From the IMG/VR virus record IMGVR_UViG_3300043446_001906, positions 1-36,780 of that record: a stretch of 36,780 bases of DNA; one strand, written 5' to 3'. Source of the DNA: a virus. How positions within the stretch are numbered: the first letter of the stretch is position 1; every line of letters begins with the position of its first letter. Of the stretch, positions 2,069-2,907 are shown in pieces. The notes under the pieces were generated by a model, which searched no databases, was not told where the DNA came from, and saw only the letters and a list, made by a program, of their open reading frames with translations. Both the position numbers and the translations under genes were made by a program.

Positions 2069-2907
2069 CACTCCGCCTCCTCGACACCTTTTCAGGTATT
2101 GGCGGCTTCAGCCTTGCCGCCCGCTGGCTCGGAGGGTTCCAGACCGTGCAGTTCGTGGAACGGGATCCTTACTGCCAGCGCATCCTCAGAAAACACTGGC
2201 CCACTGTCCCCATTCACGATGACATCTGCACCTTTAACCCAGAGCCCGGATCAGCTGACGTTGTTTGCGGAGGCTTTCCCTGCCAAGACATCAGCAGCGC
2301 CGGCAAGCAAGCCGGCATCAAGGAAGGCACCCGCTCCGGCCTGTTCTACGAACTCATGCGAGTCGTTCGCCTGGTGGAGCCCCGCTACATCGTCCTGGAA
2401 AACGTCGCAGCGATCCTTGGTCGAGGACTGGACGACGTTCTCGGGGCGTTGGCCGAGGCAGGGCTTGATGCGGAGTGGGCGTGCATACCGGCAGCGGCTG
2501 TGGGCGCCTGCCATCGGCGCGACCGGTGGTGGGCAGTTGCCTACGCCTCGGACCTGTTCAGCGATGGCGGCGCGGCTGGACACAGCAGGCAATACGGACC
2601 CGGAGCGGTTTCCGAATCTGGAAACGGTGATTGCTCAGTTGCTACCGACACCATCAGCCACCGACCACAAGGGACGATCAGGCTCAGGCCACATTCAGCG
2701 GCATGGCCACAAGCGAACCTCAGACGCCTTGATCCCGACTGGGGGGGGCATGTATCTGAACCCGTCCTTTGTCGAGGAGATGATGGGCTTTCCGGTCGGG
2801 TGGACCGTCTGCGAGCCCTAGGTAATGCCGTGGTTCCGCAGGTGGCGGCGATCCCGCTGGCGCGTGTGCTGGAGCTGCACAACGGCAACCTGACCACAAC
2901 GCCTTGA
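2065..2907 (+). CDS. dcm: DNA (cytosine-5) methyltransferase
   Basis: 280 aa, compact for the family but with all key motifs in one frame: motif I FSGIGG (residues 9-14), the catalytic PCQ in GGFPCQDIS (about 70-76), ENV in IVLENVAAIL (about 110-118), motif VIII as CHRRDRWW (about 149-156), and motif X as RALGNAVVPQ (about 249-258). It transfers a methyl group from S-adenosylmethionine to carbon 5 of cytosine and may protect phage DNA from host restriction or mark it for regulation. No partner restriction enzyme is visible. The region between motifs VIII and X, which normally carries target recognition, is short, and the same DNA is also open in the +1 frame. A run of eight G at 2751-2758 lies in this part. 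Confidence 0.92.
   Translation: MTLRLLDTFSGIGGFSLAARWLGGFQTVQFVERDPYCQRILRKHWPTVPIHDDICTFNPEPGSADVVCGGFPCQDISSAGKQAGIKEGTRSGLFYELMRVVRLVEPRYIVLENVAAILGRGLDDVLGALAEAGLDAEWACIPAAAVGACHRRDRWWAVAYASDLFSDGGAAGHSRQYGPGAVSESGNGDCSVATDTISHRPQGTIRLRPHSAAWPQANLRRLDPDWGGHVSEPVLCRGDDGLSGRVDRLRALGNAVVPQVAAIPLARVLELHNGNLTTTP
2219..2821 (+). CDS. Candidate overprinted ORF nested in the methyltransferase (+1 frame)
   Basis: 200 aa from ATG 2219; the frame is open from at least 2099. It lies wholly inside the methyltransferase gene in the +1 frame. It is not random-looking: it contains AFPAKTSAAP, SWKTSQRSL, RWPRQGLMRSGRAY, FPNLETVIAQLLPTPSATD and YLNPSFVEEMMGFPVGWT. I recall this motif series from recurrent phage and bacterial proteins that occur with or are annotated as DNA methyltransferases. 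It ends at a TAG just before motif X of the main frame. It could be a real second product, a product made by frameshifting, or a relic of a frameshifted ancestor. Reported as a candidate only. Confidence 0.35.
   Translation: MTSAPLTQSPDQLTLFAEAFPAKTSAAPASKPASRKAPAPACSTNSCESFAWWSPATSSWKTSQRSLVEDWTTFSGRWPRQGLMRSGRAYRQRLWAPAIGATGGGQLPTPRTCSAMAARLDTAGNTDPERFPNLETVIAQLLPTPSATDHKGRSGSGHIQRHGHKRTSDALIPTGGGMYLNPSFVEEMMGFPVGWTVCEP

Follow-up and report, generated by a model that had tools for sequence, protein, structure and literature searches.

Two-polypeptide C5-cytosine DNA methyltransferases have been described in M.EcoHK31I and M.AquI. M.EcoHK31I (YGGCCR) is an active enzyme whose small subunit holds only motif IX and whose large subunit carries the predicted target recognition domain (PMC3404938); the small subunit is also reported to be read from an alternative frame within the large-subunit gene (1995, Lee et al.). 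M.AquI (CYCGRG) is a split C5-methyltransferase whose small subunit holds motifs IX and X (PMC3404938). A C5-methyltransferase of two polypeptides with motif IX in the small subunit is therefore already known from M.EcoHK31I (PMC3404938). In ShiLan, a phage DNA methylase contains an insertion with a hidden out-of-frame HNH endonuclease (PMC11855218). A Paracoccus YGGCCR enzyme proved to be of the m4C type and has no bearing here.

The gene described here lies in IMG/VR virus record IMGVR_UViG_3300043446_001906 (positions 1 to 36,780), and the window is that whole analysed stretch of 36,780 nucleotides, in which tape measure, helicase, RecT and SSB genes were also found. Frame 0 of the gene encodes a C5-cytosine DNA methyltransferase, here called alpha, that matches PHROG_363 (E=1.1e-74) and, over residues 4-164 only, PF00145 (E=1.9e-33). 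Motifs I, IV (PCQ), VI (ENV), VIII and X were identified from the sequence and alignment A2, and overall motifs I-VIII and X are present. The AlphaFold model of alpha superimposes on the large domain of M.HhaI, motif X helices included (Z 22.8, 214 residues, rmsd 2.9), and an HhaI-like catalytic fold is predicted on this basis. Residues 168-216 and 229-238, the expected place of the small domain, were modelled with pLDDT below 50. A sequence-only reading of the window had credited this frame with all of the C5-methyltransferase motifs, which did not hold. A pattern search found no motif IX-like string in alpha in any of 102 homologues and the Pfam match stops at residue 164; that reading overlooked both the absence of motif IX from the main frame and its apparent supply by the +1 frame. 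The features of both frames are collected in Table 1.

Table 1. Features of the two overlapping frames; positions are those of the window
Feature	Position	Strand	Basis
Alpha, C5-cytosine DNA methyltransferase, 280 aa	2065..2907	+	PF00145, PHROG_363, AlphaFold model against M.HhaI
Alpha motif I, FSGIGG	2089..2106	+	Sequence; near-invariant in alignment A2
Alpha motif IV, PCQ, catalytic Cys	2278..2286	+	Sequence; P72, C73 invariant
Alpha motif VI, ENV	2398..2406	+	Sequence; E112, N113 invariant
Alpha motif VIII, HRRDR	2512..2526	+	Sequence; H150, R152, R154 invariant
Alpha motif X, LGNAVVPQ, at and just past the beta stop	2818..2841	+	N254 invariant, G253 near-invariant
Beta, +1-frame protein, 200 aa from inferred ATG	2219..2821	+	PHROG_1008; stop depletion, conservation, synonymous constraint; start codon conservation
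Inferred beta start codon ATG, in alpha codon 52	2219..2221	+	Conservation and covariation
Beta FPAKTS, overprints alpha motif IV PCQ	2276-2293	+	
Beta SWKTSQ, overprints alpha motif VI ENV	2393-2410	+	
Beta motif WPRQGLMRSGRAY, opposite alpha LAEAGLDAEWACI	2450..2488	+	Sequence; P79, G82, G87 near-invariant
Beta LPTP...LPTPSATD, candidate target-recognition region (inferred)	2537..2665	+	P108, T109, P110 near-invariant
Beta motif-IX-like segment LNPSFVEEMMGFPVGWT	2756..2806	+	Profile match to B22 gp50; pattern counts

From 2069 to 2821 the +1 frame within the alpha gene is an open frame of 250 codons, counted stop to stop, and its product is here called beta. The claim of a stop-free +1 frame of about 720 bases thus held, as did the peptides quoted from it: FPAKTSAAPASKPAS lies opposite FPCQDISSAGKQAG and SWKTSQRSL opposite VLENVAAIL, and WPRQGLMRSGRAY, LPTPSATDHKG and LNPSFVEEMMGFPVGWT are also present. 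The profile search proposed for the +1 product gave no match in Pfam or NCBIfam and a clear one to PHROG_1008, which is labelled DNA methyltransferase (E=1.6e-24 and, in a further comparison, E=5.7e-25; 51 of 51 members). Three origins had been offered for this frame, namely genuine overprinting, a frameshift-made alternative C-terminus, or a database family arising from frameshifted methyltransferase genes. Such a family does exist, in PHROG_1008 and PHROG_16143, each of which carries the label DNA methyltransferase; its members are, as far as tested, +1 products of methyltransferase genes and not catalytic domains. They are nevertheless real coding sequences and not debris, and an annotation artefact is not supported.

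The evidence that the +1 frame is coding comes from homologous loci. Taken alone, this gene has 0 stops in the +1 frame against 2.5 expected (P ~0.03), which is only mildly unusual for a GC-rich gene. When synonymous codons were shuffled within each gene, the +1 frame of 72 distinct full-length homologous loci contained 41 stops versus 304 expected, whereas the +2 frame of the same loci matched chance (694 versus 704). Many of the 41 are inferred, without an itemised tally, to be the stop codon that ends beta, where this lies within the region counted. Part of the 72-locus set was found with the +1 product itself; loci picked via the methyltransferase protein only had 4 stops in the +1 frame versus 37.7 expected. 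The depletion extends to 63 distinct streptococcal phage genes, a low-GC set that was likewise chosen by the methyltransferase protein only and in which motif IX is in frame: codons 51-175 have 0 stops in the +1 frame versus 413 expected. The +1 product is also conserved above the synonymous-shuffle null (mean z 8.7, +2 baseline mean z 5.8). The +2 value reflects shared ancestry, which the shuffle nulls, having no model of phylogeny, leave out of account, and it serves as the fair baseline for the +1 value. More distant loci separate the two frames better (z 6.0 versus 2.1 in L005 and 5.3 versus 1.5 in L130).

Synonymous change in alpha follows the extent of beta. Identity at fourfold sites is 0.37-0.41 over alpha codons 1-60, 0.48 over codons 61-80, 0.58-0.82 over codons 81-260 and 0.38 beyond; the upstream helicase of the same phages gives 0.34-0.52. 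At a finer scale, synonymous identity falls from 0.95 (codons 229-246) to 0.34 (codons 247-252) at about the end of beta. In the streptococcal genes the corresponding values are 0.62-0.79 over codons 51-175 and 0.34-0.54 elsewhere. Two loci (L105 and L110) appear unconstrained in pairwise counts, yet both have a beta with motif IX. Stops in the +1 frame of homologues together with free synonymous change had been named as the outcome that would refute overprinting; instead, stops are depleted and synonymous change is suppressed, which supports genuine overprinting.

A search of IMG/VR with the +1 product alone returned 442 relatives, and in nearly all fetched loci with a +1 match the match stood in the +1 phase of a methyltransferase gene. 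The beta protein alone led to 103 loci; in every one of them it overlaps a methyltransferase in +1 phase, and none contains a free-standing beta gene. The existence of free-standing beta genes had been supposed and is rejected on these 103 loci. A scan of a genome collection with beta alone found only 8 loci, mostly via motif IX. One alignment (A8, lactobacillus and paenibacillus betas) was left out since its lactobacillus rows are probably in the wrong frame. These computational results, for which there are no expression or activity data, show that both frames are conserved coding sequence, that alpha lacks motif IX, and that beta has a IX-like segment and always lies in +1 phase on alpha.

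Beta is likely the product of internal initiation at the ATG near 2219, although this is inferred. An ATG in frame and inside the beta open reading frame is found within one codon of that position in 57 of 71 loci. Alpha codon 51 (His) is mostly followed by xAT if its third base is C and usually by GAC or GGC if its third base is T; this covariation keeps one ATG (Fisher P=1.3e-8, related sequences counted separately). No Shine-Dalgarno sequence was seen before the ATG at 2219 in this gene. The His codon at the equivalent place in 64 streptococcal genes is CAT without exception, which gives an ATG, and 61 of the 64 have a Shine-Dalgarno-like sequence upstream. Paenibacillus larvae phages have GGGAGG upstream of the inferred beta start.

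It could be argued that the +1 frame is open merely as a consequence of high GC content in a gene whose methyltransferase is conserved, and that no second protein is made. The stretch is indeed GC-rich with many long overlapping open reading frames, and the openness of this one gene is weak evidence. However, the +1 frame is almost stop-free also in loci of 41-47% GC (L059, L066, L058) and wholly so over the counted codons of the streptococcal genes, synonymous constraint has a sharp end near the beta stop, the start codon covaries with its neighbor, and the streptococcal loci carry Shine-Dalgarno sequences. This explanation is all but excluded.

A second alternative is that a programmed ribosomal frameshift joins the N-terminus of alpha to the +1 C-terminus, producing a single-chain enzyme with motifs I-IX. 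In its favor, the related single-chain enzymes gp64 of Mycobacterium phage DotProduct and gp50 of Propionibacterium phage B22 have the LPTP/motif-IX region fused in the methyltransferase frame, and strings similar to the LPTP segment of beta occur in that frame of DotProduct gp64. The +1 frame, however, comes under constraint at about alpha codon 52-61, where there is a conserved ATG and before the catalytic PCQ motif is reached, and such a frameshift would leave motif X behind in the alpha frame. No systematic search for slippery sites was made, but the frameshift is very unlikely, and with it the alternative C-terminus that had been offered. Since constraint starts before PCQ at a conserved ATG, the best reading of beta is as a protein with an internal start.

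The assignment of LNPSFVEEMMGFPVGWT as motif IX is likely but inferred from sequence alone, and rests on pattern matching, a profile match to just one single-chain enzyme and a weak match to plant DRM. The beta profile at LNPSFVEEMMGFPVGWT aligns with the matching segment of B22 gp50 (hhalign E=3.4e-7), and that segment sits inside a PF00145 match that runs to the model end. The IX-like pattern is present in 99 of 101 betas and the remaining two show one by eye. In a structural database, a profile of such C-termini sets the motif-IX segment on LEPDEVEMLLGFPKNHT of plant DRM, weakly (E=1.0). AlphaFold modelled beta alone poorly (mean pLDDT 56.7), with only a small sheet at about residues 47-92 and the motif IX helix more confident. 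Foldseek and VIA-align found no convincing structural match for the model, its N-terminal part included, and a PDB sequence search with the beta profile gave no meaningful match.

The division of motifs between alpha and beta (I-VIII and X in one, IX in the other) resembles that between the large and small subunits of M.EcoHK31I and meets the criterion for an enzyme of that type, as does the nesting of the small-subunit gene in another frame of the large-subunit gene. The resemblance is by analogy. In contrast to M.EcoHK31I, target recognition is here inferred to lie in beta and not in the large subunit, beta includes LPTP segments as well as a long N-terminal domain, and the system is phage-borne and widespread. 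M.AquI also forms one C5-methyltransferase from two polypeptides, but motif X (LGNAVVPQ) is in the alpha frame here and the M.AquI-type criterion is thus not met. As in ShiLan, a second protein is concealed in another frame of a phage methylase gene; the ShiLan endonuclease, however, belongs to a mobile insertion whereas beta overlaps the conserved methyltransferase core.

The nested form is found in Acinetobacter phage ABMM1, Leptospira plasmid p2, a Nostoc plasmid, Mycobacterium phage Nitzel, a Bacteroides plasmid, Lactobacillus phage Lc-Nu, Paenibacillus phages and Bacteroidota genomes. Members of the Lc-Nu group have 0 stops in the +1 frame of codons 76-225 versus ~86 expected. Annotated phage and plasmid records of this form show no separate beta gene, with the exception of the Bacteroides finegoldii plasmid (L141), where only a C-terminal fragment (1985-2365) is annotated, as a hypothetical protein, within a methyltransferase frame of 1475-2365. 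In the actinophages Lymara (Arthrobacter phage, L003), Cintron (L136) and JangDynasty (L002), alpha reaches only past motif VIII, and the beta-like part/recognition region is encoded together with motifs IX and X by a +1 gene that overlaps alpha, an arrangement that resembles M.AquI except that the overlap is long. Not every methyltransferase gene has the +1 overlap, as the enzyme of an Enterobacter phage (L151) has stops in that frame. Three loci (L047, L084, L114) contain single-base indels that seem to swap the frames part-way, such that an open reading frame begins as beta and ends as alpha; these may be assembly errors or may be real. Among the single-chain enzymes, B22 gp50 (L134) has an intein-like insertion with a LAGLIDADG homing endonuclease directly before the catalytic motif, and the DotProduct gp64 gene (L135) contains an out-of-frame open reading frame (985-1497) with a LAGLIDADG-like stretch, AYVAGLIDGEGCIHL, which recalls the hidden HNH endonuclease of PMC11855218.

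The streptococcal genes, among them that of Streptococcus phage IPP53 (L149, 1352-1774) and loci L155-L234, encode complete methyltransferases that overprint a conserved +1 protein with a Shine-Dalgarno sequence. Their +1 product has a match in PHROG_16143 (E=1.5e-56) and a weak one in PHROG_1008 (E=0.0069). The profile of this product aligns collinearly with the beta profile of the present gene's type over 106 columns (A3 vs A7, hhalign E=4.2e-9), although the conserved alpha codons underneath may impose part of this similarity. The +1 N-terminal domain is thus retained also in enzymes that do not need a motif IX from it. Since the streptococcal enzymes with an in-frame motif IX keep a +1 relative, supplying motif IX cannot be the whole role of the +1 protein. 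This leaves the possibility that beta is a real overprinted protein with a role of its own, for instance in the control or retargeting of the methyltransferase or against host defence, without being a subunit that the enzyme needs. The homologous protein kept in the 63 streptococcal genes and the lack of any known match for the N-terminal part of beta favor this reading. Against it, in genes of the present type motif IX is found only in beta and alpha is otherwise without it, and the absence of free-standing beta among the 103 beta-selected loci fits an obligate partner. This reading is judged unlikely.

An alpha without motif IX, together with a beta that has a IX-like segment and a candidate recognition stretch, makes a two-subunit enzyme most likely, i.e., a C5-cytosine methyltransferase of alpha and beta resembling M.EcoHK31I. 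The complex, its activity, target recognition by beta and internal initiation are all inferred. In the proposed mechanism, alpha would provide S-adenosylmethionine binding and the catalytic core (motifs I-VIII) plus motif X. Beta, translated from the internal ATG in the +1 frame, would provide an N-terminal domain of unknown fold, the LPTP-rich candidate target-recognition stretch and motif IX. The two would assemble as a heterodimer into one active enzyme that methylates DNA at a short target whose identity is unknown, probably for protection from host restriction or for control of host or phage DNA. Each protein would combine one ancestral part with one part invented by overprinting, the invented parts being the N-terminus of beta over the catalytic motifs and the VIII-X stretch of alpha over the motif IX region of beta. 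A bolder reading, for which the case is evenly balanced, is that a single ancient gene was born by overprinting in a C5-methyltransferase gene and became locked in +1 phase across phages of cyanobacteria, actinobacteria, firmicutes, proteobacteria and others, complete enzymes included. Its N-terminal domain would have a DNA-modification function of its own, and in one branch the +1 protein would also hold the target-recognition and motif IX part.

The breadth of this overprinting is provisionally new, as only open-licence literature was consulted. Hundreds of phage C5-methyltransferase genes, and some bacterial ones, that are apparently annotated as one gene encode two conserved proteins. Recoding such a gene to express alpha would destroy beta, which could explain, by inference, why some recombinant phage methyltransferases are inactive. 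These loci provide a large natural dataset on the evolution of two proteins from the same DNA, as well as a set of split methyltransferases in which a hidden subunit may determine the target.
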